Below, one piece after another: positions 27,536 to 64,000 of a DNA stretch of 64,000 nt. Location of the stretch: the NCBI GenBank assembly GCA_037783545.1, contig JBBELK010000666.1:1409001-1473000 (forward strand), written 5' to 3'. The DNA is from Henricia sp. BOLD:AAB3569 (Eukaryota > Echinodermata > Asteroidea > Spinulosida > Echinasteridae). The translations under genes were made by a program, and so were the position numbers. The notes below the pieces were generated by a model that saw only the letters and a list, made by a program, of their open reading frames with translations, did not search any database and was not told the origin of the DNA. The stretch's first letter is position 1; every line of letters begins with the position of its first letter.

Positions 27536-28550
27536 ATGACATTTTCTTTAAGCTGCCTTCATGTCCAGATCACTATTTTGACCCCCTATTTTGTTATGGG
27601 TGTTGGGACTTTGATACCATATCATTTATCATATTTTTCTCACTATCATTCTGAAATTTCGCATTCTCAATCCGTATATTTTCAAGGATATCGACAAAAA
27701 ACCACTAATTTATCCGGTTCCATAAAGCAGTGCAATGATTCCACATCCAAAGGATTGCAAATTTGCTGTTTTCTTCCTATAGACAGTATTTTGGGGAGGT
27801 ATTTTATGGTTCTTAGGTTAAAACACGCTCCTTTACGTAATCTGACCTTGTGGCTGTGTGGTGCTAATAGCATGCTCAGTGGTGAAGTGTACGTTTTGTT
27901 GCTCTTATATCTTCAGCTTTCAGTCGATTCAAGATTGGATGATACACATCCTTGGAGAATGGAAGAACCACGCCTTTCTGAACAATTTCACCTTAAAAAA
28001 AACAAGACAAAATTTCCATTTTTGTTTAGAATCTTCACTATTTTGAACCATAATTGTCATTTCTTACATTTTCACAAAAGCAATTCGCTCATTGCGTTGA
28101 ATGACCATATATAGAACCTTTGCATGAGCGGCCATGACGGGGGGCAGTCACATTGTCATCGTGTCATACCTGAGTAGTCACTTTGTGGATCTATTGTCAC
28201 ATCATTTAAATAGGAAAACCTGCCCCCTGTCACCCCTCCCCCATTTTTCCCCATGGGTGCTGAGATTTTATTACTATATGATTTGTAATACTTTTCTCAT
28301 TTTTATACTTAATTTTTACGCTCCCAATCCACATATTTCCAAGGATAAGGTCAGAAAATGACAGATGTTTTGTAAACTAATTTATTCAGTTATGTAAAAA
28401 GCAGTGCAGAGATTACACCAACTTTTTTGCCTCCACATACAAATTTGAAATTGCAAATTTCCTGGGTTTTTTTTCTCATTGATAGTGTTTTGGGAAGATA
28501 TTTTATATTATTGTTAGGTTAGAACAAATTCCATTTTTGTAGAAAAATTT
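27536..28550. repeat. Two diverged tandem copies of an AT-rich repeat
   Basis: Halves at about 27580-27835 and 28235-28530 align (gggtg-tgagatttt, gcagtgca-gatt, ttttggg-agatatttta). The 192-residue frame across the first half has no recognisable motif and I treat it as chance. Confidence 0.5.
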
Positions 28551-28644: not shown

Positions 28645-28821
28645 CATTTAAGATCATCTTAGCTGCAATAGCTGTTGGGTATCCCACTGTCTTTGCCATA
28701 GCCGATTTGCCATAAGCATCTCCGTACACCGTTAAGCTTATCTCCTCCATACTGGTGAGTTTACTGGGCCATTCCACACCGACGCGATGCTTCATGATAA
28801 CCACGTCACGTTCACCGTTCT
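28645..28821 (-). CDS. AASS: AASS exon n: penultimate coding exon, source of the 158-bp array
   Basis: Encodes [20 protein letters not shown] and on to [20 protein letters not shown], the near-C-terminal SDH segment. Acceptor tgtctttacag|AGAACG, donor AATG|GTGAGT; it needs a final exon starting in phase 1. It is the only copy with the full exon and a donor. All other copies in the array stop matching after GGCAAATCnGCTAT. Confidence 0.97.
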
Positions 28822-31800
28822 CTGTAAAGACATTGATGTAATGGTATCATTAGCTATAGCTGATTTGCCATAAGCATCTCCATACACCGTTAAGCTGATC
28901 TCCTCCATAATGGTGAGTTTACTGGGCCATTCCACACCGACGCGATGCTTCATGATAACCACGTCACGTTCACCGTTCTCTGTAAAGACATTGATATAAT
29001 GGTATCATTAGCTATAGCCGATTTGCCATAAGCATCTCCATACACCGTTAAGCTGATCTCGTCCATAATGGTGAGTTTACTGGGCCATTCCACACCGATA
29101 CGATGCTTCATGATAACCACGTCACGTTCACCGTTCTCTGTAAAGACATTGATATAATGGTATCATTAGCTATAGCTGATTTGCCATAAGCATCTCCATA
29201 CACCGTTAAGCTGATCTCGTCCATAATGGTGAGTTTACTGGGCCATTCCACACCGATACGATGCTTCATGATAACCACGTCACGTTCACCGTTCTCTGTA
29301 AAGACATTGATATAATGGCTTCATTAGCTATAGATGATTTGCCATAAGCATCTCCATACACCGTTAAGCTCATCTCCTCCATACTGGTGAGTTTACTGGG
29401 CCATTCCACACCGATACGATGCTTCATGATAACGACGTCACGTTCACCGTTCTCTGTAAAGACATTGATGTAATGGTATCATTAGCTATAGCTGATTTGC
29501 CATAAGCATCTCCATACACCGTTAAGCTGATCTCCTCCATAATGGTGAGTTTACTGGGCCATTCCACACCGATACGATGCTTCATGATAACGACGTCACG
29601 TTCACCGTTCTCTGTAAAGACATTGATGTAATGGTATCATTAGCTATAGCCGATTTGCCATAAGCATCTCCATACACCGTTAAGCTGATCTCGTCCATAA
29701 TGGTGAGTTTACTGGGCCATTCCACACCGATACGATGCTTCATGATAACCACGTCACGTTCACCGTTCTCTGTAAAGACATTGATATAATGGCTTCATTA
29801 GCTATAGCTGATTTGCCATAAGCATCTCCATACACCGTTAAGCTTATCTCCTCCATACTGGTGAGTTTACTGGGCCATTCCACACCGACGCGATGCTTCA
29901 TGATAACCACGTCACGTTCACCGTTCTCTGTAAAGACATTGATATAATGGTATCATTAGCTATAGCCGATTTGCCATAAGCATCTCCATACACCGTTAAG
30001 CTAATCTCCTCCATAATGGTGAGTTTACTGGGCCATTCCACACCGATACGATGCTTCATGATAACCACGTCACGTTCACCGTTCTCTGTAAAGACATTGA
30101 TATAATGGTATCATTAGCTATAGCCGATTTGCCATAAGCATCTCCATACACCGTTAAGCTGATCTCCTCCATACTGGTGAGTTTACTGGGCCATTCCACA
30201 CCGACGCGATGCTTCATGATAACGACGTCACGTTCACCGTTCTCTGTAAAGACATTGATATAATGGTATCATTAGCTATAGCCGATTTGCCATAAGCATC
30301 TCCATACACCGTTAAGCTAATCTCCTCCATAATGGTGAGTTTACTGGGCCATTCCAAACCGACGCGATGCTTCATGATAACCACGTCACGTTCACCGTTC
30401 TCTGTAAAGACATTGATATAATGGTTTCATTAGCTATAGCCGATTTGCCATAAGCATCTCCATACACTGTTAAGCTAATCTCCTCCATACTGGTGAGTTT
30501 ACTGGGCCATTCCACACCGATACGATGCTTCATGATGACCACGTCACGTTCACCGTTCTCTGTAAAGACATTGATATAATGGTATCATTAGCTATAGCTG
30601 ATTTGCCATCAGCATCTCCGTACACCGTTATGCTCATCTCCTCCTTATTGGTGAGTTTACTGGGCCATTCCACACCGATACGATGCTTCATGATAACGAC
30701 GTCACGTTCACCGTTCTCTGTAAAGACATTGATGTAATGGTATCATTAGCTATAGCCGATTTGCCATAAGCATCTCCATACACCGTTAAGCTGATCTCCT
30801 CCATAATGGTGAGTTTACTGGGCCATTCCACACCGACGCGATGCTTCATGATAACGACGTCACGTTCACCGTTCTCTGTAAAGACATTGATGTAATGGTA
30901 TCATTAGCTATAGCCGATTTGCCATAAGCATCTCCATACACCGTTAAGCTGATCTCCTCCATAATGGTGAGTTTACTGGGCCATTCCACACCGATACGAT
31001 GCTTCATGATAACGACGTCACGTTCACCGTTCTCTGTAAAGACATTGATGTAATGGTATCATTAGCTATAGCTGATTTGCCATAAGCATCTCCATACACC
31101 GTTAAGCTGATCTCCTCCATAATGGTGAGTTTACTGGGCCATTCCACACCGATACGATGCTTCATGATAACGACGTCACGTTCACCGTTCTCTGTAAAGA
31201 CATTGATGTAATGGTATCATTAGCTATAGCTGATTTGCCATAAGCATCTCCATACACCGTTAAGCTGATCTCCTCCATAATGGTGAGTTTACTGGGCCAT
31301 TCCACACCGATACGATGCTTCATGATAACGACGTCACGTTCACCGTTCTCTGTAAAGACATTGATATAATGGTTTCATTAGCTATAGCTGATTTGCCATA
31401 AGCATCTCCATACACCGTTAAGCTGATCTCCTCCATAATGGTGAGTTTACTGGGCCATTCCACACCGATACGATGCTTCATGATAACGACGTCACGTTCA
31501 CCGTTCTCTGTAAAGACATTGATGTAATGGTATCATTAGCTATAGCCGATTTGCCATAAGCATCTCCATACACCGTTAAGCTGATCTCCTCCATAATGGT
31601 GAGTTTACTGGGCCATTCCACACCGATACGATGCTTCATGATAACGACGTCACGTTCACCGTTCTCTGTAAAGACATTGATATAATGGTATCATTAGCTA
31701 TAGCTGATTTGCCATAAGCATCTCCATACACCGTTAAGCTGATCTCCTCCATAATGGTGAGTTTACTGGGCCATTCCACACCGATACGATGCTTCATGAT

Positions 31801-34800
31801 AACGACGTCACGTTCACCGTCCTCTGTAAAGACATTGATATAATGGTATCATTAGCTATAGCTGATTTGTCATAAGCATCTCCATACACCGTTAAGCTGA
31901 TCTCCTCCTTATTGGTGAGTTTACTGGGCCATTCCACACCGATACGATGCTTCATGATAACCACGTCACGTTCACCGTTCTCTGTAAAGACATTGATGTA
32001 ATGGTATCATTAGCTATAGCTGATTTGCCATAAGCATCTCCATACACCGTTAAGCTGATCTCCTCCATACTGGTGAGTTTACTGGGCCATTCCACACCGA
32101 TACGATGCTTCATGATGACCACGTCACGTTCACCGTTCTCTGTAAAGACATTGATATAATGGTATCATTAGCTATAGCTGATTTGCCATCAGCATCTCCG
32201 TACACCGTTATGCTCATCTCCTCCTTATTGGTGAGTTTACTGGGCCATTCCACACCGATACGATGCTTCATGATAACGACGTCACGTTCACCGTTCTCTG
32301 TAAAGACATTGATGTAATGGTATCATTAGCTATAGCCGATTTGCCATAAGCATCTCCATACACCGTTAAGCTGATCTCCTCCATAATGGTGAGTTTACTG
32401 GGCCATTCCACACCGACGCGATGCTTCATGATAACCACGTCACGTTCACCGTTCTCTGTAAAGACATTGATATAATGGTTTCATTAGCTATAGCTGATTT
32501 GCCATAAGCATCTCCATACACCGTTAAGCTGATCTCCTCCATAATGGTGAGTTTACTGGGCCATTCCACACCGATACGATGCTTCATGATAACGACGTCA
32601 CGTTCACCGTTCTCTGTAAAGACATTGATGTAATGGTATCATTAGCTATAGCCGATTTGCCATAAGCATCTTCATACACCGTTAAGCTGATCTCCTCCAT
32701 AATGGTGAGTTTACTGGGCCATTCCACACCGATACGATGCTTCATGATAACGACGTCACGTTCACCGTTCTCTGTAAAGACATTGATGTAATGGTATCAT
32801 TAGCTATAGCCGATTTGCCATAAGCATCTCCATACACCGTTAAGCTGATCTCCTCCATAATGGTGAGTTTACTGGGCCATTCCACACCGATACGATGCTT
32901 CATGATAACGACGTCACGTTCACCGTTCTCTGTAAAGACATTGATGTAATGGTATCATTAGCTATAGCCGATTTGCCATAAGCATCTCCATACACCGTTA
33001 AGCTGATCTCCTCCATAATGGTGAGTTTACTGGGCCATTCCACACCGATACGATGCTTCATGATAACGACGTCACGTTCACCGTTCTCTGTAAAGACATT
33101 GATGTAATGGTATCATTAGCTATAGCCGATTTGCCATAAGCATCTCCATACACCGTTAAGCTGATCTCCTCCATAATGGTGAGTTTACTGGGCCATTCCA
33201 CACCGATACGATGCTTCATGATAACGACGTCACGTTCACCGTTCTCTGTAAAGACATTGATGTAATGGTATCATTAGCTATAGCCGATTTGCCATAAGCA
33301 TCTCCATACACCGTTAAGCTGATCTCCTCCATAATGGTGAGTTTACTGGGCCATTCCACACCGATACGATGCTTCATGATAACGACGTCACGTTCACCGT
33401 TCTCTGTAAAGACATTGATGTAATGGTATCATTAGCTATAGCCGATTTGCCATAAGCATCTCCATACACCGTTAAGCTGATCTCCTCCATAATGGTGAGT
33501 TTACTGGGCCATTCCACACCGATACGATGCTTCATGATAACAACGTCACGTTCACCGTTCTCTGTAAAGACATTGATGTAATGGTATCATTAGCTATAGC
33601 CGATTTGCCATAAGCATCTCCATACACCGTTAAGCTGATCTCCTCCATAATGGTGAGTTTACTGGGCCATTCCACACCGATACGATGCTTCATGATAACG
33701 ACGTCACGTTCACCGTTCTCTGTAAAGACATTGATATAATGGTATCATTAGCTATAGCCGATTTGCCATAAGCATCTCCATACACCGTTAAGCTGATCTC
33801 CTCCATACTGGTGAGTTTACTGGGCCATTCCACACCGATACGATGCTTCATGATGACCACGTCACGTTCACCGTTCTCTGTAAAGACATTGATATAATGG
33901 TATCATTAGCTATAGCTGATTTGTCATAAGCATCTCCATACACCGTTAAGCTGATCTCCTCCATACTGGTGAGTTTACTGGGCCATTCCACACCGACGCG
34001 ATGCTTCATGATAACCACGTCACGTTCACCGTTCTCTGTAAAGACATTGATATAATGGTATCATTAGCTATAGCCGATTTGCCATAAGCATCTCCATACA
34101 CCGTTAAGCTGATCTCCTCCATACTGGTGAGTTTACTGGGCCATTCCACACCGATACGATGCTTCATGATAACCACGTCACGTTCACCGTTCTCTGTAAA
34201 GACATTGATATAATGGTATCATTAGCTATAGCCGATTTGCCATAAGCATCTCCATACACCGTTAAGCTGATCTCCTCCATACTGGTGAGTTTACTGGGCC
34301 ATTCCACACCGACGCGATGCTTCATGATGACCACGTCACGTTCACCGTTCTCTGTAAAGACATTGATATAATGGTATCATTAGCTATAGCTGGTTTGCCA
34401 TAAGCATCTCCATACACCGTTAAGCTGATCTCCTCCATACTGGTGAGTTTACTGGGCCATTCCACACCGACGCGATGCTTCATGATAACCACGTCACGTT
34501 CACCGTTCTCTGTAAAGACATTGATATAATGGTTTCATTAGCTATAGATGATTTGCCATCAGCATCTCCATACACTGTTAAGCTCATCTCCTCCATACTG
34601 GTGAGTTTACTGGGCCATTCCACACCGACGCGATGCTTCATGATAACCACGTCACGTTCACCGTTCTCTGTAAAGACATTGATATAATGGTTTCATTAGC
34701 TATAGCTGGTTTGCCATAAGCATCTCCATACACCGTTAAGCTGATCTCCTCCATACTGGTGAGTTTACTGGGCCATTCCACACCGACGCGATGCTTCATG

Positions 34801-37800
34801 ATAACGACGTCACGTTCACCGTTCTCTGTAAAGACATTGATATAATGGTATCATTAGCTATAGCCGATTTGCCATAAGCATCTCCATACACCGTTAAGCT
34901 GATCTCCTCCATACTGGTGAGTTTACTGGGCCATTCCACACCGACGCGATGCTTCATGATGACCACGTCACGTTCACCGTTCTCTGTAAAGACATTGATA
35001 TAATGGTATCATTAGCTATAGCTGGTTTGCCATAAGCATCTCCATACACCGTTAAGCTGATCTCCTCCATACTGGTGAGTTTACTGGGCCATTCCACACC
35101 GACGCGATGCTTCATGATAACCACGTCACGTTCACCGTTCTCTGTAAAGACATTGATATAATGGTATCATTAGCTATAGCTGATTTGCCATAAGCATCTC
35201 CATACACCGTTAAGCTGATCTCCTCCATACTGGTGAGTTTACTGGGCCATTCCACACCGATACGATGCTTCATGATAACCACGTCACGTTCACCGTTCTC
35301 TGTAAAGACATTGATGTAATGGTATCATTAGCTATAGCCGATTTGCCATAAGCATCTCCATACACCGTTAAGCTGATCTCCTCCATAATGGTGAGTTTAC
35401 TGGGCCATTCCACACCGACGCGATGCTTCATGATAACCACGTCACGTTCACCGTTCTCTGTAAAGACATTGATATAATGGTTTCATTAGCTATAGCTGAT
35501 TTGCCATAAGCATCTCCATACACCGTTAAGCTGATCTCCTCCATAATGGTGAGTTTACTGGGCCATTCCACACCGATACGATGCTTCATGATAACGACGT
35601 CACGTTCACCGTTCTCTGTAAAGACATTGATGTAATGGTATCATTAGCTATAGCCGATTTGCCATAAGCATCTTCATACACCGTTAAGCTGATCTCCTCC
35701 ATAATGGTGAGTTTACTGGGCCATTCCACACCGATACGATGCTTCATGATAACGACGTCACGTTCACCGTTCTCTGTAAAGACATTGATGTAATGGTATC
35801 ATTAGCTATAGCCGATTTGCCATAAGCATCTCCATACACCGTTAAGCTGATCTCCTCCATAATGGTGAGTTTACTGGGCCATTCCACACCGATACGATGC
35901 TTCATGATAACGACGTCACGTTCACCGTTCTCTGTAAAGACATTGATGTAATGGTATCATTAGCTATAGCCGATTTGCCATAAGCATCTCCATACACCGT
36001 TAAGCTGATCTCCTCCATAATGGTGAGTTTACTGGGCCATTCCACACCGATACGATGCTTCATGATAACGACGTCACGTTCACCGTTCTCTGTAAAGACA
36101 TTGATGTAATGGTATCATTAGCTATAGCCGATTTGCCATAAGCATCTCCATACACCGTTAAGCTGATCTCCTCCATAATGGTGAGTTTACTGGGCCATTC
36201 CACACCGATACGATGCTTCATGATAACGACGTCACGTTCACCGTTCTCTGTAAAGACATTGATGTAATGGTATCATTAGCTATAGCCGATTTGCCATAAG
36301 CATCTCCATACACCGTTAAGCTGATCTCCTCCATAATGGTGAGTTTACTGGGCCATTCCACACCGATACGATGCTTCATGATAACGACGTCACGTTCACC
36401 GTTCTCTGTAAAGACATTGATGTAATGGTATCATTAGCTATAGCCGATTTGCCATAAGCATCTCCATACACCGTTAAGCTGATCTCCTCCATAATGGTGA
36501 GTTTACTGGGCCATTCCACACCGATACGATGCTTCATGATAACAACGTCACGTTCACCGTTCTCTGTAAAGACATTGATGTAATGGTATCATTAGCTATA
36601 GCCGATTTGCCATAAGCATCTCCATACACCGTTAAGCTGATCTCCTCCATAATGGTGAGTTTACTGGGCCATTCCACACCGATACGATGCTTCATGATAA
36701 CGACGTCACGTTCACCGTTCTCTGTAAAGACATTGATATAATGGTATCATTAGCTATAGCCGATTTGCCATAAGCATCTCCATACACCGTTAAGCTGATC
36801 TCCTCCATACTGGTGAGTTTACTGGGCCATTCCACACCGATACGATGCTTCATGATGACCACGTCACGTTCACCGTTCTCTGTAAAGACATTGATATAAT
36901 GGTATCATTAGCTATAGCTGATTTGTCATAAGCATCTCCATACACCGTTAAGCTGATCTCCTCCATACTGGTGAGTTTACTGGGCCATTCCACACCGACG
37001 CGATGCTTCATGATAACCACGTCACGTTCACCGTTCTCTGTAAAGACATTGATATAATGGTATCATTAGCTATAGCCGATTTGCCATAAGCATCTCCATA
37101 CACCGTTAAGCTGATCTCCTCCATACTGGTGAGTTTACTGGGCCATTCCACACCGACGCGATGCTTCATGATGACCACGTCACGTTCACCGTTCTCTGTA
37201 AAGACATTGATATAATGGTATCATTAGCTATAGCTGGTTTGCCATAAGCATCTCCATACACCGTTAAGCTCATCTCCTCCATACTGGTGAGTTTACTGGG
37301 CCATTCCACACCGATACGATGCTTCATGATAACCACGTCACGTTCACCGTTCTCTGTAAAGACATTGATGTAATGGTATCATTAGCTATAGCTGATTTGC
37401 CATAAGCATCTCCATACACCGTTAAGCTGATCTCCTCCATACTGGTGAGTTTACTGGGCCATTCCACACCGATACGATGCTTCATGATAACCACGTCACG
37501 TTCACCGTTCTCTGTAAAGACATTGATATAATGGTATCATTAGCTATAGCTGATTTGCCATAAGCATCTCCATACACCGTTAAGCTGATCTCCTCCATAC
37601 TGGTGAGTTTACTGGGCCATTCCACACCGACGCGATGCTTCATGATAACCACGTCACGTTCACCGTTCTCTGTAAAGACATTGATATAATGGTTTCATTA
37701 GCTATAGATGATTTGCCATCAGCATCTCCATACACTGTTAAGCTCATCTCCTCCATACTGGTGAGTTTACTGGGCCATTCCACACCGACGCGATGCTTCA

Positions 37801-40800
37801 TGATAACCACGTCACGTTCACCGTTCTCTGTAAAGACATTGATATAATGGTTTCATTAGCTATAGCTGGTTTGCCATAAGCATCTCCATACACCGTTAAG
37901 CTGATCTCCTCCATACTGGTGAGTTTACTGGGCCATTCCACACCGACGCGATGCTTCATGATAACCACGTCACGTTCACCGTTCTCTGTAAAGACATTGA
38001 TATAATGGTATCATTAGCTATAGCTGATTTGCCATAAGCATCTCCATACACCGTTAAGCTGATCTCCTCCATACTGGTGAGTTTACTGGGCCATTCCACA
38101 CCGATACGATGCTTCATGATAACCACGTCACGTTCACCGTTCTCTGTAAAGACATTGATGTAATGGTATCATTAGCTATAGCCGATTTGCCATAAGCATC
38201 TCCATACACCGTTAAGCTGATCTCCTCCATAATGGTGAGTTTACTGGGCCATTCCACACCGATACGATGCTTCATGATAACGACGTCACGTTCACCGTTC
38301 TCTGTAAAGACATTGATATAATGGTATCATTAGCTATAGCCGATTTGCCATAAGCATCTCCATACACCGTTAAGCTGATCTCCTCCATACTGGTGAGTTT
38401 ACTGGGCCATTCCACACCGACGCGATGCTTCATGATAACGACGTCACGTTCACCGTTCTCTGTAAAGACATTGATGTAATGGTTTCATTAGCTATAGCCG
38501 ATTTGCCATAAGCATCTCCGTACACCGTTAAGCTGATCTCCTCCATAATGGTGAGTTTACTGGGCCATTCCACACCGATACGATGCTTCATGATGACCAC
38601 GTCACGTTCACCGTTCTCTGTAAAGACATTGATATAATGGTATCATTAGCTATAGCTGATTTGTCATAAGCATCTCCATACACCGTTATGCTCATCTCCT
38701 CCATAATGGTGAGTTTACTGGGCCATTCCACACCGATGCGATGCTTCATGATAACCACGTCACGTTCACGTTCTCTGGAAAACCATTAAAAACATCGGTT
38801 CTCTGTAAGAATATACTGGACATATACAGTTAACATGCTGGGCAGTACCTTCTGGAATTTCCATTGCATTTTGGTATTTTAATTATTTTTACAACAGTTT
38901 GTAAAAAAATCTCAGTAGGTTATGGTTTTATTTTATTTCCATGAAAACGAGGCACAAGGTCCGACATTTTGATGCCTTCAAAAGTTACTGCGCAATAGTG
39001 TGAAATATTTAAAATAAATTTATCAACAGTTTTGACATGCCTTGGTATCGTAGTTTTACTAATATTTAAAAAAACAAAACAAATCAACAGCGGGAGGGGG
39101 ATATTAAGACATTTTTTAACTCTTACGATTCAATTTTGTTGTTTTACCCACTGTACAAAACATGTACATGTACTTTGTAAATTTAAATTGCACGTACATT
39201 ATGAGAGTAATTTTAATAAAATAAAGGTTTCAAAATGTTACTTGCATTTAGAAGATGACACAAGTTTATTGAATCATTCTCATCATGTTGTGGGTAATAT
39301 TAGTCCATGAGCCAAGTCCCAAATTTAGGGAAGAAGGTACCACTCGGGGGGACTAATTCTCTTATGAATTTTCAAGATATAAAAACTATGATAGACCTTC
39401 TGAAACGGTAACTAATGGTGCTTTTTCCTACATTTTTTCAAACTGTAAAATAAATATTCTTGGTGCCTTACTTTGCCAAAAACGATGACAGCTGTTTACA
39501 ATTTTTATTAAAGACACCGCAACAGATTCAACGCATTTTTATGCGAGTAGCACATATTTGCGTACACAGGAAACAGTTGTAATTTTTTTTTACATGCTCA
39601 ACGATTGTTCTCTGAAGCCTGATATAAAAGTGTCACAATGTATTTTCATGGAATCACCCGAATGTCTAATGCATAGTTCCGAGATTGCCCAGTTAACCCC
39701 GCCCCTTAGATACTGTTGCTATGGCTCACAAGCCATCGCAAACAAATGGCGACACAACGTACAAAGCAACAGGACTTGGCATGGAAAGCACAGATTCATT
39801 GGAGAAAACTCAAAGGTATTTATGTTTTAGGGTCGACAGTTACCGTAGCACACACTGAGCGAAGGGCTAGTAATGCAAGTATGCCATATATTCATAAAAA
39901 TGCGCTTTCCTACCTTTGAACAGCGAATCGCCAGACATTGAAACAAAAATTCACCCGGTCACTGGCGCATACAACATGCAAACTGTATGGGCAGAAAATC
40001 GCGTGATTGTGTGATGATTGCATCACTTTGACCTATGTGGGCGCCGTCTGCTAGCTCTGTTGTGATAGGTCGACGGGTTCGGCTTGATTGACAGGTCGGA
40101 ACTATGCATTAGTCACATGTTACAACACAACTCTCTGTGAAATGCAGAATAAAGTAACTTGTGAAGACTTCCAACTTACGGTATCTCTGTGTGTGACTAA
40201 GGTATGCAGACAGTGTTTCCAGCGGAGTGATCTTTTTATCGACTGTAGTCTCTGACAACAGACCCAACCTGTGGTTATACACACATGAATTGGTTCATAT
40301 CATTATGTTGTACAGATTCCAGATGTACTCAAACTCAACATATACAACCATTAAGAAGAATTATACAATATTGGATTGCTTTAAGGGAGAATATACCGCA
40401 TGAGTTCGGTATTTTCATGACGAGTTCGGTATATTCTTATATTACATGTACCCTCAAAGCAATCCAAATTTCCGCCGTGCAGTTGTTTACTTATACACAC
40501 AAACGTGCATTTTGGTTTTTCTCCCTCTTGATACTTTGCCAACTACTCGTGATTAAACGATTACTCGCGAGTAATTGCTGCAACTACTCGCAAGTAGCAA
40601 AATCCACTAGTCGCCCGCCAGTAATGTGAACACTCCCTTCATTCAACAAAGCGATTTGACACGTAACGAGATGGGGGCGTCACACAGCTTCATTCAATCT
40701 TCGTTAGCGGTTGTCTAATGTGAACGGTACCGCTCTTTGTTCAATCTTCGTTTGATCTTCATTAAGTGAGATGTGTAGGCACGCTTCATTTCCTAATGAT

Positions 40801-55800: not shown

Positions 55801-58387
55801 GTGGAGAGATGCAACTTAATGTAAAGTACCTTGCTTAAGGGCACATGCACCAAGACATGATCTAGATTCGAATCTATAACTAGTAGAATCAAACAGGGTC
55901 ACATTCCATAGCAACAGTGACATCAGCTAGGTATGAGCAACATCAAACTATTATACAGTATGCAGTATGTACATGGACCGGTACACATACACGTGTAAGT
56001 TCAAGCTCACAACATAATAAGCACTGCCGTCTAAACCATATTCAAGTGTTTATGCCAAGATGTTTGTCTGAGTTCAACTGATTTGCATAAAATCTTTGTA
56101 AGCCATATGAGGTCACTGTTTGAACTCAATTTTGGAGCCGGCACCCCGTACGCAGTGACGCAGCCAGAATAACTAATCGGTGGCGAAGACGCAAATAACA
56201 AAGTCAAGTACCTTGGATAAGGCTAGAAAAACTGGTGAAAAAACCAAAATGCAAAAATCACTCTCCGAATGAAATTATGCACAGGGGTGTGGGGGGAAAA
56301 AAAGTAAAATTTGATTATTTAAAATTTGCCAGAAGCAACCTTGAAGCCAAATGATTTCAAAGCATTGTTTTAAGTTTAGAGAAATGAAAGTACACTGGAT
56401 TTTGAACCTGGGAATCTGAGAATATACATGAGTCTTTCCACAGTAAAGGGGGCATTTTGGCAACACAGACCATATTTTCAAGGAAATACCTTTGTCTGGT
56501 CTCAAAATAAACAAAATAATTTTTGGTTGTTCTGAACAGACTTACATGTAAGCCCAAAAAGGGTTACAAATAGTGTGACAACATACCTTTTAAAAAACCC
56601 TCTGTACAAATTTCCAATATACGCTCGTAACCGGGACGGCCCCAAAATGTAACACAAGTGTCTGTCCCAGTTACAAGCGTACATGTATATTGGAAATTTG
56701 TACACAGGGTTTTTAGAAAGGCATGTTGTCACACTATTTGTAAAAAATTTTGGGCCTAAGTTATCTTTTCAGAACAACTAAAACCTATTTCTTTTATTTT
56801 GAGACCAGACAAAGGTATTTCATTGAAAATATGGTCTGTGTTGCCAAAATGCCCCCTTTACTGTGGAAAAACCCACATGTAACTAGTTTACCATAGTAGC
56901 AGACCAGAGGGTGTAGAAAAATGGGAAAGGCAGCTTGGCCACATAATTAGAAGCTGGATATGGTGGGACTTTTTGAGATTAAAATTTATTTGAAGCTACG
57001 AATGAATGGAGTGAATAGACAACAAGAACATTGGAGCTAGAGATCACAGGTTCAAATCCCAGGTAAATTAAACTCCAACTGCTTACCAAACAATTAAATA
57101 CTTTAATCATTGTGTCAAAATGTACAAACCTTAATCTTCTAGAGTGTGGGACAGAGGAGATTTCATGGAAGATTTAAGAACAGAAGTGCAGAAAATGTTT
57201 AAAAAAAAGCAGAAATTAACCCTTTTAATAATTTGTTTTTAGACACAAATTATGCAATCTCATCACGGTTGGTGCAGTACATCAAAAATTCAAGAAATTT
57301 AGCATTTTTTTATGACAACATTTTTGTATTTGTTATGTATGATTCAGTTTCACAGGCAAGAATAATTTGCTTGAAGTTACATTGCACATGTACATGTACA
57401 TGTGTACTAAAAATCAAAAAGAGCAACTGATTAATTATCACTCCATGAGCATGAATTTCATGAAGACATCACATACAACTTGTGAATAGAAGAGGTTTCT
57501 TACAATTTTAAAGAATTACAACTCAAAATCTCAACAGATGTTTCACAGAGCACATGAGGTCTAGTGGGTACACAGCCATGCTTGTGATCGAAGGGTTATG
57601 GTTCCGAGCCCCACTTGTGCTAATGTGTTTGTGTCCGTGGGCAAGACACTTAATCTCAATTGCCTCGTCAACCCAAGCGATGGGGAGCTGTTAGGGGGAA
57701 TGCCACAATCTAACTGCTGATAGGCTTGTGCGCCTTGGCCAGGTAGCCACCTAGTTGAAGCAAAATGGTTCTGGTGATTTCCTGATGGCAGCAGTAATAA
57801 TGGCAACAGCACCAGGAGCACCCCGCAGGGGTGGACATGTGCGCTATATAAGTATCCACCATCATCATTATTATTATGTTCCTTGGAAAATCAAACTTTC
57901 AACCACTTGCTCCAGACAGCGGCTGTAAAAGGTTACATGTACTCGGCCTTGTGACTCGGGCCATTATCAGGCTATATGCCCCCAGGCGGTCTTAAATACA
58001 CAGTTTACGACTGGCAAAACGAACTTAATAAAACATTTAAAAGGACAAATGTGCACGAGTTGCAAACTATTGACAATAATTAATAACTGTCAATACGTGT
58101 CTTGACCTGGGGCAATGTCTCTGACTGACGGATAATAAGTTCAAACAGGTCCACTTGGACTTGGTAAAAATACTGAAGCGAAACAGTCGGGAAAGCGATT
58201 CCAATGTGATTGGTTGATCAGTGTCTTGTTATAAACAAGTTCAGATGAATAATTGATACTGTATTTCATCAGAATAAAATGCTCACCTGTGACTCATGAA
58301 GTGTTGATGTTTGTGATTAGCGTCATACAGATCAAACGGACTCTCAATGCTGCTACACTCCTTAATAAACTCAATAGATCCACCAAC
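28645..58387 (-). CDS. AASS: Alpha-aminoadipic semialdehyde synthase (AASS), C-terminal two thirds, 14 exons
   Basis: AASS is the mitochondrial bifunctional enzyme that joins lysine to 2-oxoglutarate as saccharopine (LKR half) and then oxidises saccharopine to glutamate and aminoadipic semialdehyde (SDH half). Exons in gene order: 58387-58287, 52196-52085, 51946-51887, 51498-51425, 49702-49584, 48889-48760, 48022-47912, 46688-46580, 46099-46023, 43514-43280, 42134-42039, 41016-40901, 40268-40180 and 28821-28645. They give 535 codons with every phase consistent. Landmarks: [18 protein letters not shown] near the LKR end, a GSGNMATP nucleotide-binding loop, [42 protein letters not shown] and [17 protein letters not shown]. 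The N-terminal LKR part lies beyond 64000. The short last exon was not found. Three exons have become satellites. Confidence 0.96.
28690..38790 (-). repeat. Exon-derived satellite 1, 158-bp unit, about 64 copies
   Basis: Each unit holds about 126 nt of the 5' part of AASS exon n plus about 32 nt of the intron before it, including the acceptor tgtctttacag. Copies differ at few fixed positions (gatacg/gacgcg, taacg/taacc, ccataat/ccatact, gatgtaat/gatataat), so the array is young or homogenised. The unit is 2 modulo 3, so an extra copy in mRNA would shift the frame. The authentic exon is the 3'-most copy in gene orientation. The far edge at about 38.77 kb decays into unrelated intron. Confidence 0.97.
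32290..37955. repeat. Higher-order duplication inside satellite 1
   Basis: A block from about 32.29 to 34.79 kb recurs from about 35.29 to 37.95 kb. Rare variants mark it: catcttcatacacc at 32671 and 35673 and caacgtcacg at 33541 and 36543, both 3,002 bp apart (19 units). The tagatgatttgccatcagc variant at 34546 recurs 3,160 bp later (20 units), so one unit was gained in between. A separate 1,580-bp (10-unit) duplication links about 30.5 and 32.1 kb. Confidence 0.85.
39032..39660. other. Intron, no gene seen
   Basis: AT-rich AASS intron between the satellite and a family C element. The open frames here have no recognisable features. Confidence 0.45.
39669..40110. repeat. TIR element, family C, copy 3
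   Basis: Ends atgcatagttccgagatt and acaggtcggaactatgcat, flanked by ta on both sides, which suggests a TA target duplication. In the same internal orientation as copy 2. Confidence 0.85.
40180..40268 (-). CDS. AASS: AASS exon m
   Basis: Encodes [20 protein letters not shown] and then AYLSHTQRY, matching the LGLL..E......LDAL..HL stretch of the family. Acceptor ccacag|GTTGGG, donor TACC|GTAAGT. Phase 2 in, 1 out. The next exon lies 11.3 kb away across satellite 1. Confidence 0.95.
40368..40468. repeat. Palindromic element O, copy 1
   Basis: ggattgcttta-gggagaatataccgc and gcggtatattct-like arms with attttcatga at the centre. A second copy lies at 42284. Confidence 0.6.
40540..40856. repeat. 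TIR element J region
   Basis: Contains repeated taatgtgaac and caacaaagcgatttgac motifs and ends ttctctagtgagaatgaggt, the inverse of 18690. The right end abuts the end of AASS exon l by about 45 bases. Confidence 0.5.
40901..41016 (-). CDS. AASS: AASS exon l
   Basis: Encodes [20 protein letters not shown] and then [19 protein letters not shown]. Acceptor cccctcag|CATGAG. The donor CA|GTCAGT is chosen because it alone joins in frame to LGLLSE of the next exon. Phase 0 in, 2 out. Confidence 0.93.
41060..42030. other. AASS intron with internal duplications
   Basis: cattagcatagttttgggca (about 41440) and catttgcatagttttgggca (about 41640) are a diverged duplication. gctagataagaaacg at 41600 and its inverse cgttttttatctagc at 41850 suggest a TIR or fold-back element between them. 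No exon seen. Confidence 0.4.
42039..42134 (-). CDS. AASS: AASS exon k
   Basis: Encodes [20 protein letters not shown] and then [12 protein letters not shown]. Two acceptors are possible. tgtcag|GGTTTTT is chosen because it continues …RYK|GFCKT… in phase 0 and restores the conserved G-[YF]-x-K segment; an internal aacag would not. Donor TGG|GTAAGA. Confidence 0.94.
42284..42436. repeat. Palindromic element O, copy 2
   Basis: aatattggatg-ctttgagggtgat and gagaatataccgca are mirrored by tgcggtatattctc, atatcaccc and acatccaatatt. About 150 bp. Confidence 0.75.
42816..43231. repeat. TIR element, family C, copy 4
   Basis: The left end is taatgcatagttccgac. The right end, tcggaactac, is interrupted by a 6-bp acatgt before atgcatt. 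It lies within 50 bases of the donor of AASS exon j. Confidence 0.8.
43280..43514 (-). CDS. AASS: AASS exon j, source of the 178-bp array
   Basis: Starts C|TGGAGT and encodes [20 protein letters not shown], then [28 protein letters not shown] and [17 protein letters not shown]. The NLEG..NRDST and GIPSAHT..RGTLRYK stretches are the saccharopine dehydrogenase signature. Acceptor gcccattgtag|C, donor AAG|GTATAT. Phase 2 in, 0 out. This 3'-most copy is the only one that runs past CAGCTT to a donor. Confidence 0.97.
43392..45800 (-). repeat. Exon-derived satellite 2, 178-bp unit, 13 acceptor copies
   Basis: Each unit contains the end of the intron (ttatttctctgcccattgta g) and the first part of AASS exon j through GACATCAGCTT, then returns to intron (cctacttcaaccctgattta). 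Thirteen acceptors can be counted, from 43515 to 45759. Some units have lost one base in the cgggcgggatg run, which would break their frame. The unit is 1 modulo 3. Confidence 0.95.
45283..45375. mobile_element. 93-bp insertion in one unit of satellite 2
   Basis: One unit is interrupted between gatggcacc and cagggacgcag by about 93 bp whose ends read cactatga and tcatagtg. The interior holds the further inverted pair accattgtt / aacaatgg. It looks like a tiny TIR element that inserted after the array formed and has not spread to the neighbouring units. Confidence 0.75.
45815..45885 (-). repeat. tRNA-like 5' half next to satellite 2
   Basis: The minus strand reads tagctcaattggtagggcat followed by cgacgcgttaagcagaagg, a D-arm and anticodon-arm-like stretch, without a T arm. 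It is probably the head of a degraded SINE rather than a tRNA gene. It lies at the upstream edge of satellite 2. Confidence 0.45.
46023..46099 (-). CDS. AASS: AASS exon i
   Basis: Encodes [20 protein letters not shown] and then LRYKF, with the invariant CGGLPAPE motif. Acceptor tatcgacag|GTGCGA, donor TTCAA|GTAAGG. Phase 0 in, 2 out. The split asparagine leads into W-S-A-T of exon j. Confidence 0.97.
46580..46688 (-). CDS. AASS: AASS exon h
   Basis: Encodes [20 protein letters not shown] and then [26 protein letters not shown] is a hallmark of saccharopine dehydrogenases. Acceptor acctacag|T, donor AAG|GTACTA. Phase 2 in, 0 out. Confidence 0.97.
46836..47056. mobile_element. Non-autonomous Tc1/mariner-like element
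   Basis: The left end cagttgtagtcagaagttta plus catac and the right end gtatgtaaacttctgacttc plus tg are inverse complements, flanked on both sides by TA. The end sequence strongly resembles the known Tc1-family motif CAGTTGAAGTCGGAAGTTTA. At 221 bp it has no transposase and would rely on one encoded elsewhere. Confidence 0.88.
47291..47667. repeat. TIR element with perfect 20-bp ends
   Basis: aaggaagggacaacacttgc and gcaagtgttgtcccttcctt are exact inverse complements 377 bp apart, in the AASS intron. No coding content. Confidence 0.85.
47912..48022 (-). CDS. AASS: AASS exon g
   Basis: Encodes [20 protein letters not shown] and then [16 protein letters not shown]. This matches S-L-L-P-x-x-x-H-P-x-V-A and MVTASY of the family. 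The acceptor tttgcag|CATGCT is preferred to the internal ttgccag, which would delete the conserved LP...HP segment. Donor AAAG|GTAAGG. Phase 2 at both ends. Confidence 0.96.
48145..48483 (+). repeat. tRNA-derived SINE, copy 2
   Basis: Head ggtaccttggccgag...ggttcaaatcc...gcggtacc, body with gtaacgcactctaaagatcc, tail (aataat)n. Nearly identical to the copy at 51017. Confidence 0.88.
48515..48740. repeat. Dispersed repeat U, copy 2
   Basis: Shares gtgcaccacgtagcaa and caccag-cattatgcaaatgt with 13925-14150. It ends just before the donor of AASS exon f. Confidence 0.6.
48760..48889 (-). CDS. AASS: AASS exon f
   Basis: Encodes [20 protein letters not shown] and then [22 protein letters not shown], the segment after the nucleotide-binding loop. 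Acceptor tttcacag|CGTCGG, donor ATCAG|GTACCA. Phase 1 in, 2 out. Confidence 0.95.
49113..49486. repeat. Long fold-back element M
   Basis: Arms of about 150 bp (gggcaattcctgaaatt ... and inverse, ending ggaattgccc) with a short centre around ggtttcggctgaaacc. The arms are highly similar, so the RNA would form a long hairpin. It lies in the AASS intron between exons f and e. Confidence 0.88.
49584..49702 (-). CDS. AASS: AASS exon e: nucleotide-binding loop
   Basis: Encodes [20 protein letters not shown] and then [31 protein letters not shown] is the G-x-G-x-x-x-x-P Rossmann loop of the SDH half. Acceptor ttcaccag|AATCAT, donor ATAG|GTTGGT, an unusual GTTGGT donor that also appears at every unit junction of satellite 3. 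Phase 2 in, 1 out. Confidence 0.96.
49754..49927 (-). repeat. SINE head, inverted
   Basis: Reverse of the 24677 SINE head: gaatcgaacc (B box), ccttgctcaagggcac and ccgttcggctataacacccc. Only about the first half is present. Confidence 0.75.
50217..50587. repeat. TIR element with a nested family A insertion
   Basis: ggccaatttcatcaagctgt with tcagcagaaacattt is mirrored by aaatgtttctgctga with acagctttatgagattgg. Family A copy 6 sits inside it. Confidence 0.75.
50376..50512. repeat. Fold-back element, family A, copy 6
   Basis: A complete palindrome inserted inside the 50217-50587 element. Very close to copy 3 in sequence. Confidence 0.85.
51017..51361 (+). repeat. tRNA-derived SINE, copy 3
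   Basis: The head keeps a 7-bp acceptor stem (ggtaccg / cggtacc), an A box (tggccgagtgg) and a B box (gattcaaatcc), but the anticodon arm does not pair normally. The body and (aataat)n tail match copy 2. Confidence 0.88.
51425..51498 (-). CDS. AASS: AASS exon d
   Basis: Encodes [20 protein letters not shown] and then EVTM, matching A-V-I-x-S-N-G-x-L-x-x-K-Y-x-Y-I of the family. Acceptor tgttacag|GCTATC, donor ATGCC|GTAAGT. Phase 0 in, 2 out. Confidence 0.95.
51887..51946 (-). CDS. AASS: AASS exon c
   Basis: A 20-codon exon, [20 protein letters not shown]. Acceptor ttttgtag|CTCAAG, donor GAT|GTAAGT, phase 0 at both ends. Confidence 0.92.
52085..52196 (-). CDS. AASS: AASS exon b
   Basis: Encodes [20 protein letters not shown] and then [17 protein letters not shown], the near-invariant end of the LKR half. 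Acceptor ttccag|GTTCTC, donor ATG|GTAAGC. Phase 2 in, 0 out. It fixes the 3' end of exon a by sharing a split arginine codon. Confidence 0.97.
52541..52736 (-). repeat. SINE head, inverted, diverged
   Basis: gattcgaaccc, ccttgcacaagggcac and ctagaccactaggtcataac match the inverted SINE head at 49754. Confidence 0.7.
53672..53804. repeat. Fold-back element, family A, copy 7
   Basis: Palindrome ttaaaggcacaggctcgtca ... inverse, ending gtgccttta. Confidence 0.85.
54371..54402. repeat. aacaaatga short tandem repeat
   Basis: A unit of 8-9 bases repeated about four times. It lies within a 241-residue minus-strand frame that I consider non-coding. Confidence 0.8.
54664..54890. repeat. gggcgaagtgg degenerate repeat block
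   Basis: About eight copies of a 16-20-bp unit built on gggcgaagtggcatt on the plus strand, preceded by three inverted copies (ccacttcgccc). It has a short fold-back organisation and no coding evidence. Confidence 0.75.
55330..55614. repeat. TIR element with perfect 18-bp ends
   Basis: tagacctttatcacggtg and caccgtgataaaggtcta are exact inverse complements 285 bp apart. Confidence 0.85.
55816..55890 (-). repeat. SINE head fragment, inverted
   Basis: taccttgcttaagggcacat and agattcgaatct resemble the inverted SINE head. Short and diverged. Confidence 0.5.
56426..56880. repeat. Long fold-back element N
   Basis: Arms of about 220 bp with high similarity (ttccacagtaaagggggcat ... and inverse, ending ccctttactgtggaa), centred near 56650 around gggacggcc. 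RNA would form a long hairpin. It lies in the AASS intron. Confidence 0.88.
57550..57877 (+). repeat. SINE of a second family
   Basis: Head with ggtctagtggg and ggttccgagccc, body cgtgggcaagacacttaatc, 3' end gcgctatataagtatcca and an (atc/att)n tail. The ending is shared with 8370-8411. Confidence 0.75.
58287..58387 (-). CDS. AASS: AASS exon a, source of the 101-bp array
   Basis: Encodes [20 protein letters not shown] and then [13 protein letters not shown], matching GGSIEFM.EC..I..PF.LYDA of the family. The donor is CACAG|GTGAGC; the last two bases complete arginine with exon b. This is the only copy in the window followed by this donor. The 5' end at GTTGG is inferred from the unit boundary; the authentic acceptor must lie beyond 64000 or at a unit junction. 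Confidence 0.88.
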
Positions 58388-61300
58388 CTGTGACTCATGA
58401 AGTGCTGATGTTTGTGATTAGCGTCATACAGATCAAACGGACTCTCAATGCTGCTACACTCCTTAATAAACTCAATAGATCCACCAACCTGTGACTCATG
58501 AAGTGCTGTTTGTGATTAGCATCATACAGATCAAACGGACTCTCAATGCTGCTACACTCCTTAATAAACTCAATGGATCCACCAACCTGTGACTCATGAA
58601 GTGTTGATGTTTGTGATTAGCATCATATAGATCAAACGGACTCTCAATGCTGCTACACTCCTTAATAAACTCAATAGATCCACCAACCTGTGACTCATGA
58701 AGTGCTGATGTTTGTGATTAGCATCATACAGATCAAATGGACTCTCAATGCTGCTACACTCCTTAATAAACTCAATAGATCCACCAACCTGTGACTCATG
58801 AAGTGTTGATGTTTGTGATTAGCATCATACAGATCAAATGGACTCTCAATGCTGCTACACTCCTCAATAAACTCAATGGATCCACCAACCTGTGACTCAT
58901 GAAGTGCTGATGTTTGTGATTAGCGTCATACAGATCAAACGGACTCTCAATGCTGCTACACTCCTTAATAAACTCAATAGATCCACCAACCTGTGACTCA
59001 TGAAGTGCTGATGTTTGTGATTAGCGTCATACAGATCAAACGGACTCTCAATGCTGCTACACTCCTTAATAAACTCAATGGATCCACCAACCTGTGACTC
59101 ATGAAGTGCTGATGTTTGTGATTAGCATCATACAGATCAAACGGACTCTCAATGCTGCTACACTCCTTAATAAACTCAATGGATCCACCAACCTGTGACT
59201 CATGAAGTGTTGATGTTTGTGATTAGCATCATACAGATCAAATGGACTCTCAATGCTGCTACACTCCTCAATAAACTCAATGGATCCACCAACCTGTGAC
59301 TCATGAAGTGTTGATGTTTGTGATTAGCGTCATACAGATCAAACGGACTCTCAATGCTGCTACACTCCTCAATAAACTCAATAGATCCACCAACCTGTGA
59401 CTCATGAAGTGTTGATGTTTGTGATTAGCGTCATACAGATCAAACGGACTCTCAATGCTGCTACACTCCTTAATAAACTCAATGGATCCACCAACCTGTG
59501 ACTCATGAAGTGTTGATGTTTGTGATTAGCATCATACAGATCAAACGGACTCTCAATGCTGCTACACTCCTTAATAAACTCAATAGATCCACCAACCTGT
59601 GACTCATGAAGTGTTGATGTTTGTGATTAGCATCATACAGATCAAACGGACTCTCAATGCTGCTACACTCCTCAATAAACTCAATAGATCCACCAACCTG
59701 TGACTCATGAAGTGTTGATGTTTGTGATTAGCATCATACAGATCAAACAGACTCTCAATGCTGCTACACTCCTTAATAAACTCAATAGATCCACCAACCT
59801 GTGACTCATGAAGTGTTGATGTTTGTGATTAGCATCATACAGATCAAACAGACTCTCAATGCTGCTACACTCCTTAATAAACTCAATGGATCCACCAACC
59901 TGTGACTCATGAAGTGTTGATGTTTGTGATTAGCATCATACAGATCAAACGGACTCTCAATGCTGCTACACTCCTTAATAAACTCAATAGATCCACCAAC
60001 CTGTGACTCATGAAGTGTTGATGTTTGTGATTAGCATCATACAGATCAAACGGACTCTCAATGCTGCTACACTCCTTAATAAACTCAACGGATCCACCAA
60101 CCTGTGACTCATGAAGTGCTGATGTTTGTGATTAGCATCATACAGATCAAACGGACTCTCAATGCTGCTACACTCCTTAATAAACTCAATGGATCCACCA
60201 ACCTGTGACTCATGAAGTGTTGATGTTTGTGATTAGCATCATACAGATCAAACGGACTCTCAATGCTGCTACACTCCTTAATAAACTCAATGGATCCACC
60301 AACCTGTGACTCATGAAGTGTTGATGTTTGTGATTAGCGTCATACAGATCAAACGGACTCTCAATGCTGCTACACTCCTTAATAAACTCAATAGATCCAC
60401 CAACCTGTGACTCATGAAGTGTTGATGTTTGTGATTAGCATCATACAGATCAAACGGACTCTCAATGCTGCTACACTCCTTAATAAACTCAATGGATCCA
60501 CCAACCTGTGACTCATGAAGTGTTGATGTTTGTGATTAGCGTCATACAGATCAAACGGACTCTCAATGCTGCTACACTCCTTAATAAACTCAATGGATCC
60601 ACCAACCTGTGACTCATGAAGTGTTGATGTTTGTGATTAGCATCATACAGATCAAACAGACTCTCAATGCTGCTACACTCCTTAATAAACTCAATGGATC
60701 CACCAACCTGTGACTCATGAAGTGCTGATGTTTGTGATTAGCATCATACAGATCAATTGGACTCTCAATGCTGCTACACTCCTTAATAAACTCAATAGAT
60801 CCACCAACCTGTGACTCATGAAGTGCTGATGTTTGTGATTAGCATCATACAGATCAATTGGACTCTCAATGCTGCTACACTCCTTAATAAACTCAATAGA
60901 TCCACCAACCTGTGACTCATGAAGTGCTGATGTTTGTGATTAGCATCATACAGATCAAACGGACTCTCAATGCTGCTACACTCCTTAATAAACTCAATGG
61001 ATCCACCAACCTGTGACTCATGAAGTGTTGATGTTTGTGATTAGCGTCATACAGATCAAATGGACTCTCAATGCTGCTACACTCCTTAATAAACTCAATG
61101 GATCCACCAACCTGTGACTCATGAAGTGTTGATGTTTGTGATTAGCATCATACAGATCAAACAGACTCTCAATGCTGCTACACTCCTTAATAAACTCAAT
61201 GGATCCACCAACCTGTGACTCATGAAGTGTTGATGTTTGTGATTAGCATCATACAGATCAAACGGACTCTCAATGCTGCTACACTCCTTAATAAACTCAA

Positions 61301-64000
61301 TAGATCCACCAACCTGTGACTCATGAAGTGTTGATGTTTGTGATTAGCGTCATACAGATCAAACGGACTCTCAATGCTGCTACACTCCTTAATAAACTCA
61401 ATGGATCCACCAACCTGTGACTCATGAAGTGTTGATGTTTGGGATTAGCATCATACAGATCAAACGGACTCTCAATGCTGCTACACTCCTTAATAAACTC
61501 AATGGATCCACCAACCTGTGACTCATGAAGTGTTGATGTTTGTGATTAGCATCATACAGATCAAACGGACTCTCAATGCTGCTACACTCCTTAATAAACT
61601 CAATGGATCCACCAACCTGTGACTCATGAAGTGCTGATGTTTGTGATTAGCATCATACAGATCAAACGGACTCTCAATGCTGCTACACTCCTTAATAAAC
61701 TCAATAGATCCACCAACCTGTGACTCATGAAGTGTTGATGTTTGTGATTAGCATCATACAGATCAAACGGACTCTCAATGCTGCTACACTCCTTAATAAA
61801 CTCAATGGATCCACCAACCTGTGACTCATGAAGTGTTGATGTTTGTGATTAGCATCATACAGATCAAACAGACTCTCAATGCTGCTACACTCCTTAATAA
61901 ACTCAATGGATCCACCAACCTGTGACTCATGAAGTGTTGATGTTTGTGATTAGCATCATACAGATCAAACGGACTCTCAATGCTGCTACACTCCTCAATA
62001 AACTCAATGGATCCACCAACCTGTGACTCATGAAGTGTTGATGTTTGTGATTAGCATCATACAGATCAAATGGACTCTCAATGCTGCTACACTCCTTAAT
62101 AAACTCAATGGATCCACCAACCTGTGACTCATGAAGTGCTGATGTTTGTGATTAGCATCATACAGATCAAATGGACTCTCGATGCTGCTACACTCCTTAA
62201 TAAACTCAATGGATCCACCAACCTGTGACTCATAAAGTGTTGATGTTTGTGATTAGCATCATACAGATCAAACAGACTCTCAATGCTGCTACACTCCTTA
62301 ATAAACTCAATGGATCCACCAACCTGTGACTCATGAAGTGTTGATGTTTGTGATTAGCGTCATACAGATCAAACAGACTCTCAATGCTGCTACACTCCTT
62401 AATAAACTCAATGGATCCACCAACCTGTGACTCATGAAGTGTTGATGTTTGTGATTAGCGTCATACAGATCAAATGGACTCTCAATGCTGCTACACTCCT
62501 TAATAAACTCAATAGATCCACCAACCTGTGACTCATGAAGTGTTGATGTTTGTGATTAGCATCATACAGATCAAACAGACTCTCAATGCTGCTACACTCC
62601 TTAATAAACTCAATGGATCCACCAACCTGTGGCTCATGAAGTGTTGATGTTTGTGATTAGCGTCATACAGATCAAATGGACTCTCAATGCTGCTACACTC
62701 CTTAATAAACTCAATGGATCCACCAACCTGTGACTCATGAAGTGTTGATGTTTGTGATTAGCATCATACAGATCAAACGGACTCTCAATGCTGCTACACT
62801 CCTTAATAAACTCAATGGATCCACCAACCTGTGACTCATGAAGTGTTGATGTTTGTGATTAGCATCATACAGATCAAATGGACTCTCAATGCTGCTACAC
62901 TCCTTAATAAACTCAATAGATCCACCAACCTGTGACTCATGAAGTGTTGATGTTTGTGATTAGCGTCATACAGATCAAACAGACTCTCAATGCTGCTACA
63001 CTCCTTAATAAACTCAATGGATCCACCAACCTGTGACTCATGAAGTGTTGATGTTTGTGATTAGCATCATACAGATCAAACGGACTCTCAATGCTGCTAC
63101 ACTCCTTAATAAACTCAATGGATCCACCAACCTGTGACTCATGAAGTGTTGATGTTTGTGATTAGCATCATACAGATCAAACAGACTCTCAATGCTGCTA
63201 CACTCCTTAATAAACTCAATGGATCCACCAACCTGTGACTCATAAAGTGTTGATGTTTGTGATTAGCGTCATACAGATCAAATGGACTCTCAATGCTGCT
63301 ACACTCCTTAATAAACTCAATGGATCCACCAACCTGTGACTCATGAAGTGTTGATGTTTGTGATTAGCATCATACAGATCAATTGGACTCTCAATGCTGC
63401 TACACTCCTCAATAAACTCAATGGATCCACCAACCTGTGACTCATGAAGTGCTGATGTTTGTGATTAGCATCATACAGATCAAATGGACTCTCAATGCTG
63501 CTACACTCCTTAATAAACTCAATGGATCCACCAACCTGTGACTCATGAAGTGTTGATGTTTGTGATTAGCATCATACAGATCAAACGGACTCTCAATGCT
63601 GCTACACTCCTTAATAAACTCAATGGATCCACCAACCTGTGACTCATGAAGTGTTGATGTTTGTGATTAGCATCATACAGATCAAACGGACTCTCAATGC
63701 TGCTACACTCCTTAATAAACTCAATGGATCCACCAACCTGTGACTCATGAAGTGTTGATGTTTGTGATTAGCATCATACAGATCAAATGGACTCTCAATG
63801 CTGCTACACTCCTCAATAAACTCAATGGATCCACCAACCTGTGACTCATGAAGTGTTGATGTTTGTGATTAGCATCATACAGATCAAATGGACTCTCAAT
63901 GCTGCTACACTCCTTAATAAACTCAATAGATCCACCAACCTGTGACTCATGAAGTGCTGATGTTTGTGATTAGCATCATACAGATCAAATGGACTCTCAA
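58287..64000 (-). repeat. Exon-derived satellite 3, 101-bp unit, at least 56 copies
   Basis: Head-to-tail copies of AASS exon a, running off the right edge. One unit near 58501 lacks four bases. Repeat homology ends exactly at the exon end in the 3'-most copy, where the real donor GTGAGC replaces GTTGGT. Each junction reads CACAG|GTTGGT. No intron is visible between copies. Substitutions are few and recurrent (cgg/tgg/cag, gtc/atc, gatcc/gatcc with a/g before it). The unit is 2 modulo 3. Confidence 0.97.

Follow-up and report, generated by a model that had tools for sequence, protein, structure and literature searches.

We examined a 64,000-nucleotide stretch of the genome of the starfish Henricia sp. 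(the window; positions 1409001-1473000 of contig C666, in an assembly of 740.7 Mb and 2104 contigs), which carries on its minus strand AASS, the gene for alpha-aminoadipic semialdehyde synthase (LKR/SDH). Tandem arrays were found on four of the 21 coding exons of this gene (exons 3, 7, 16, and 20), and together they occupy 25.8 kb of its 53.8 kb, or about half. The unit of each array contains one splice site, the acceptor in two arrays and the donor in the other two. We regard it as probable (roughly 0.7) that these arrays are neutral satellites that grew from small tandem duplications spanning exactly one splice boundary. Coordinates are those of the window; positions past 64000 are given on the same scale and come from a longer stretch of 314 kb that was examined.

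Tandem arrays at four AASS exons

The 158-bp array lies on the acceptor side of exon 20 (28695..38772, minus strand, 63.8 copies; edges here and for the other AASS arrays are from self-offset comparison and Tandem Repeats Finder). Its unit consists of an intron tail, the acceptor, and the first ~120 nt of the exon, without the donor. The 3'-most unit is the intact exon 20 (28645..28821, minus strand; acceptor TCTTTACAG, donor GTGAGT), which when joined to exon 21 matches Pfam family PF16653. The second array, whose unit is 179 bp and not the 178 bp given in an earlier note on this DNA, lies on the acceptor side of exon 16 (43387..45786, minus strand, 13.4 copies, with one irregular spacing of 275 bp), and again the 3'-most unit is the intact exon (43280..43514, minus strand; acceptor CCCATTGTAG). 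The 101-bp array is on the donor side of exon 7 (58282..71003, minus strand, 126.0 copies); the window holds 58282..64000, its 3' part in gene sense, and the intact exon 7, at 71186-70903 on the minus strand outside the window, is its 5'-most unit. Also outside the window is the 156-bp array on the donor side of exon 3 (77714-78340, minus strand, 4.0 copies). The Tandem Repeats Finder rows have 93-98% matches between head-to-tail copies, and the period is constant in all but a few copies, as in a true tandem repeat array.

The units derive from different exons and differ in sequence, which bears out what the earlier note had said of the three arrays that enter the window. Its estimate that about 18 kb is covered is right for the window and too low for the whole gene, where the arrays add up to 25.8 kb. 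It had also taken the 3'-most copy of every array to be the real exon. This is correct for the 158- and 179-bp arrays, where the 3'-most copy alone continues into the remaining exon and its donor. In the donor-side arrays (101 and 156 bp) only the 5'-most copy is continuous with the exon's first part, so that for the 101-bp array the claim is reversed. Likewise, the view that exonic sequence had seeded satellites holds insofar as the units contain parts of exons, but each unit is one exon-intron boundary rather than exonic sequence as such.

All 21 exons are collinear with Patiria miniata AASS, and each of the four arrayed exons has a single intact copy. The arrays themselves sit in the introns next to these exons and leave the coding sequence collinear, with the predicted join between exons 7 and 8 two residues shorter than in Patiria. 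By this comparison the units of all four arrays span the splice boundary of a real exon, and the same layout was found at an exon with a FAM194 domain elsewhere on the contig; in each case the splicing is predicted from sequence. The arrays do not resemble mutually exclusive exons, in which every copy has both an acceptor and a donor and keeps the frame. Each unit has a single splice site, the copies run into stop codons, and four of the five unit lengths (158, 179, 101, 156, and 154, or 2, 2, 2, 0, and 1 modulo 3) are not multiples of three, so retained copies would yield no alternative protein.

The FAM194-domain exon carries a fifth array, of 154-bp units (about 35 copies, donor-side, 230797-236195, with 230800-236345 as a second reading of its edges), on the same contig about 150 kb from AASS. 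The 5'-most copy is an open exon with the FAM194 domain (PF14977, E = 4.4e-12). By eye, the copies seen and their consensus have a common internal deletion relative to the intact exon, which indicates that a derived copy was amplified. The one-splice-site layout was thus present in all five boundary arrays examined (four in AASS and one in FAM194), and AASS is, to judge from these layouts, not alone in bearing such arrays.

The pattern for the 158-bp unit had 64 matches in the genome, all 64 of them at AASS. The 101-bp pattern had 124, against about 126 copies in the array, and among the matches listed (100) all are at AASS. Abundance of the units elsewhere, which the earlier note had named as a sign that they did not arise in AASS, was not found for these two units, the ones searched for (for the 101-bp unit, among the matches listed), and they do not behave as dispersed satellites with copies at many loci.

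Divergence of the copies and apparent exchange with the parent exons

In the counts of splice-site motifs and of synonymous changes, copies were scored only when they had the exact period of their array, which left 62 copies of the 158-bp unit, 122 of the 101-bp unit, 3 of the 156-bp unit, 25 of the 154-bp unit, and 5 of the 179-bp unit (4 of 9 were out of register and were dropped). The mean pairwise difference between copies is 3.1% in the 158-bp array, 2.5% in the 101-bp array, and 1.8% in the 154-bp array. In the 158-bp array neighboring copies are more alike than distant ones, with a difference of 0.025 at lag 1 and 0.036 at lag 8, as expected from local exchange.

Relative to the intact exon, the 158-bp consensus has differences at 5 of 122 sites and the closest single copy at 1 of 122; for the 101-bp consensus and its intact exon the figure is 2 of 98. 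At one residue the intact exon 20 agrees with Patiria in having serine, and the 158-bp copies have isoleucine. At another, which is either valine or isoleucine, it is the copies and not the intact exon that match Patiria. With residues shared with Patiria on either side, the arrays drift from their parent exons and apparently also exchange with them.

In exon 7 the intact copy continues the upstream part of its exon, is collinear with Patiria, and now ends in CAG/GTTGGT. The sequence CAG/GTGAGC stands at the far end of the array, 12.6 kb away, where the 3'-most copy has just GTGAGC and then runs into intron. We infer that this was the former donor of exon 7. When exon 7 is joined to exon 8 from its first donor, the frame is kept.

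A proposed origin at splice boundaries

Such an array would begin with a small tandem duplication across one splice boundary that leaves the exon whole. The junction of the 101-bp array has zero shared bases and that of the 179-bp array has, by eye, an imperfect short match; with so little homology at the first junctions that can be read, the arrays probably started by break repair or template switching. If exon definition leads splicing to pick the copy nearest its partner site, every extra copy would become intron, the mRNA would be unchanged, and the array would be unseen by selection. Duplications within an exon, or of a whole exon, would alter the protein and would mostly be purged. From two copies on, unequal exchange or replication slippage would enlarge the array and homogenize it. 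The layout, the intact copies, and the local homogenization of the 158-bp array are direct observations; the use of the intact copies in splicing is a prediction.

Several observations weigh against this account. The 101-bp array has no neighbor effect, its copy differences being flat over the lags. The 158-bp unit has about 30 bases of intron tail that were not found upstream of the first copy (the only loose match in the 314 kb is in another part of the gene and has the look of a chance hit), so this array is not a simple copy of its present flank. The present donor of the intact exon 7 looks poorer than the displaced GTGAGC. Two post hoc and weak signs of constraint were also seen: variant columns in the splice windows of the five arrays number 3, against an expectation of 9.0 (P = 0.014; two odd-length copies, of 670 and 275 bases, excluded), and synonymous changes make up 21 of 54 in the exon parts, with 13.5 expected (P = 0.026). 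Finally, without the extra copies AASS would measure 28.6 kb, 2.87 kb of it exon, and a unit of such a length placed there at random would cover an exon boundary with a probability of 0.14-0.21, or about one in five. Random seeding would put four of four arrays on boundaries with a probability of only about 0.001, a post hoc figure for a gene that was chosen for its arrays.

Alternative explanations

The boundary excess suggests, within the limits of a post hoc figure, that boundaries are seeded more often or that an effect not seen here is at work. Satellite seeding in this genome might prefer exon-intron boundaries, by way of transcription, R-loops, steps in base composition, or exon chromatin, a possibility that we consider unlikely. 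In the 314 kb, all four arrays with a period of at least 90 bp and at least 10 copies are exon-linked, compared with one of the ten that have 3-7 copies (Fisher P = 0.005). The grouping is post hoc, one gene holds three of the four long arrays, and the nine other low-copy arrays are not proven to be non-exonic.

A scan for the perfect donor motif AGGTRAGT repeated three times at 140-170 bp spacing, with the reversed motif as the only control, gave 169 rows genome-wide against 119 for the control, although rows are not arrays. On the contigs up to C665, a hand count in which related arrays were merged by hand gave 16 non-redundant donor-motif places against 11 reversed. Single sites of the reversed motif outnumber those of the donor motif by a factor of 1.6 (41,067 against 25,557), and after correction for this the enrichment of donor arrays is modest, with a ratio of 2.3 and P = 0.02 from one control motif. 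At 109-139 bp spacing the contigs up to C324 have 20 donor places against 11, but about eight of the donor places are spaced at 121 bp and could all belong to a single dispersed satellite. Because this spacing recurs, the 109-139 bp bin was left out of the enrichment test.

Also unfavorable to a general preference for boundaries is the result from three Pfam families, whose 109 exon matches (67, 14, and 28; 13 of 184 candidates scored in the aldehyde-dehydrogenase family) include one same-position neighbor pair, an aldehyde-dehydrogenase exon on C666. AASS, with 4 of 21 exons arrayed, is unusual beside these families (Fisher 0.002), a comparison that is no true test since AASS was picked for its arrays. 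The earlier note had proposed a local process acting repeatedly on this locus. The four arrays on four exons do speak for repeated seeding, but a process special to AASS is not supported, in view of the FAM194 array and of the donor-motif arrays on many contigs, which mark candidate exons.

We think it very unlikely that the arrays act in splicing or expression, with AASS output tuned by dozens of decoy splice sites, or by the long intron being removed in steps, and with the sites under selection. The variant-poor splice windows fit such a role, as does the retention of ACAG in 62 of 62 scored 158-bp copies, of the 14-base donor context (with GTGAGT as donor) in 25 of 25 scored 154-bp copies, and of CAGGTT in 122 of 122 scored 101-bp copies. 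However, the constraint is post hoc and weak, copies so alike would share their sites anyway, and the AG before each 101-bp junction has no pyrimidine tract. Selection on transcript processing, which the earlier note had offered as another possibility, is hinted at weakly by the same two post hoc signals.

Expansion of one or a few extra copies by the assembler is very unlikely: the 10-13 kb arrays are near common long-read lengths, but their flanks are unique, the 314 kb examined contain 0 N, the period is constant (64 matches of the 158-bp unit over exactly 63 x 158 bases), and many variant units are distinct (34 of 62 in the 158-bp array and 46 of 122 in the 101-bp array).

The AASS gene and other repeats

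The gene was identified from its joined exon translation, which is 79% identical to AASS of Acanthaster planci, 78% to that of Patiria miniata, and 74% to that of Asterias rubens. With Patiria AASS as a guide, tblastn placed the 21 coding exons between about 81710 and 27876, so that the start lies 17.7 kb past the end of the window. Exon 21, the last coding exon, includes the stop codon (27876..27990, minus strand; tblastn with Patiria AASS residues 914-951, and sequence). On the same strand, comparison with Patiria placed exon 19 at 40165..40270 and exon 18 at 40890..41016 (both with approximate ends), and, together with sequence, exon 17 at 42039..42134. Exons 15 to 8 (46025..52196, minus strand, approximate ends) are without listed arrays of period at least 40. 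A query of non-array exons had 13 of 13 scored matches on C666; AASS was thus found once in the assembly, and a comparison of the arrays between haplotypes was dropped, there being no second allele.

Directly upstream, in gene sense, of the first 158-bp copy (38773-38850), two acceptor-like stretches, TTCTTACAGAGAAC and TTTTCCAGAGAAC, take the place of the unit's intron tail. Another AASS intron contains a 21-bp minisatellite of about 130 copies (~2.7 kb, at 73938-76665, outside the window), in which no exon sequence was seen and which ends about 90 bp before an exon. Downstream of AASS, at 20800-23351, are three more arrays, with 148-, 413-, and 57-bp units, that are not shown to be exonic. 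Two 67-bp arrays 7.7 kb apart (107640-107885 and 115383-115628) are listed with the same length, score, and beginning of the consensus, as though a block had been duplicated together with its array. The aldehyde-dehydrogenase exon mentioned above (G000:C666:818561-819097) has two matches to one stretch of the profile, which are separated by 342 bp and of which the second has a stop; it may represent a further case of exon duplication on C666.

Open frames of 500-900 residues in CCT genes were considered as hidden arrays and rejected: the frame on contig C205 spans an intronic 78-bp array of tRNA-like sequence with no CCT match within it. At four other CCT loci the largest array is 103 bp x 2.9, and C387, the partner of C205, also has a 78-bp array. 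These two contigs, which may be alleles or paralogues, are mostly 91-95% identical in their matching pieces and have 12.5 (C205) and 5.8 (C387) copies of the 78-bp unit. Arrays of tRNA-like sequence (AGCTGAGCTGGTAGAGCATCTGC or close to it) occur at unlinked places, namely 211158-211842, L030 2015-2994 (12.5 copies), and the related L031 1865-2358 (5.8 copies). The contig pairs C99/C218, C205/C387, C70/C480, and C91/C121 match the same families or arrays, which may mean that both haplotypes are present in parts of the assembly.

Relation to known repeats and significance

Internal tandem repeats at exon-intron boundaries have been described in human segmental-duplication genes (De Grassi and Ciccarelli 2009, PMC2812944). 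There the units average 30 bp x 4, or 160 bp in total, and 162 alignments before manual filtering gave 27 intron modifications after it. As in AASS, units lie on exon-intron boundaries and alter intron or exon length, and slippage or unequal crossing-over is invoked. The starfish arrays differ from what is described there in having units of 101-179 bp, as many as 126 copies (12.7 kb), and four arrays in one gene. Tandem duplication is also a cited route of intron gain, for which one source (PMC4974935) cites 24-bp AGGT repeats of fission yeast. The likeness is that a duplicated segment carries splice signals, with an AG/GT at every junction of the 101-bp array, and that the extra sequence would be spliced out. 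Unlike the cases cited there, AASS appears to have had existing introns lengthened, with no new intron position seen and far higher copy numbers. Going by its title, one other paper treats tandem arrays as giving rise to alternatively spliced introns. As homogenized tandem copies the arrays resemble satellite DNA generally; they depart from it in that the two tested units are found in one gene only (for the 101-bp unit, among the matches listed) and that the parental exon is intact in place. Among the papers listed from the open-licence literature of PubMed Central, judged by title or opening of the abstract, we found no report of exon-boundary satellites this large or in starfish. Boundary repeats are known, but they are small; the scale and clustering of those in AASS are, to our knowledge, new.

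These arrays suggest a simple rule that sets apart the exon-overlapping repeats a gene can survive, and may show where genes tolerate satellite DNA. One working splice site stands next to dozens of nearly identical decoys, so that the choice made in exon definition becomes directly testable. Gene finders may mispredict such loci. Each satellite has a known parent that has stayed where it was, which makes it possible to read the age, the direction, and the exchange of every array. It is conceivable, though we hold it to be a rather doubtful extension, that exon-intron boundaries are favored birthplaces of long satellites, where one-splice-site duplications both escape selection and are seeded more often and where arrays exchange with the working exon. 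If so, a gene could feed its own satellite and be overwritten by it.

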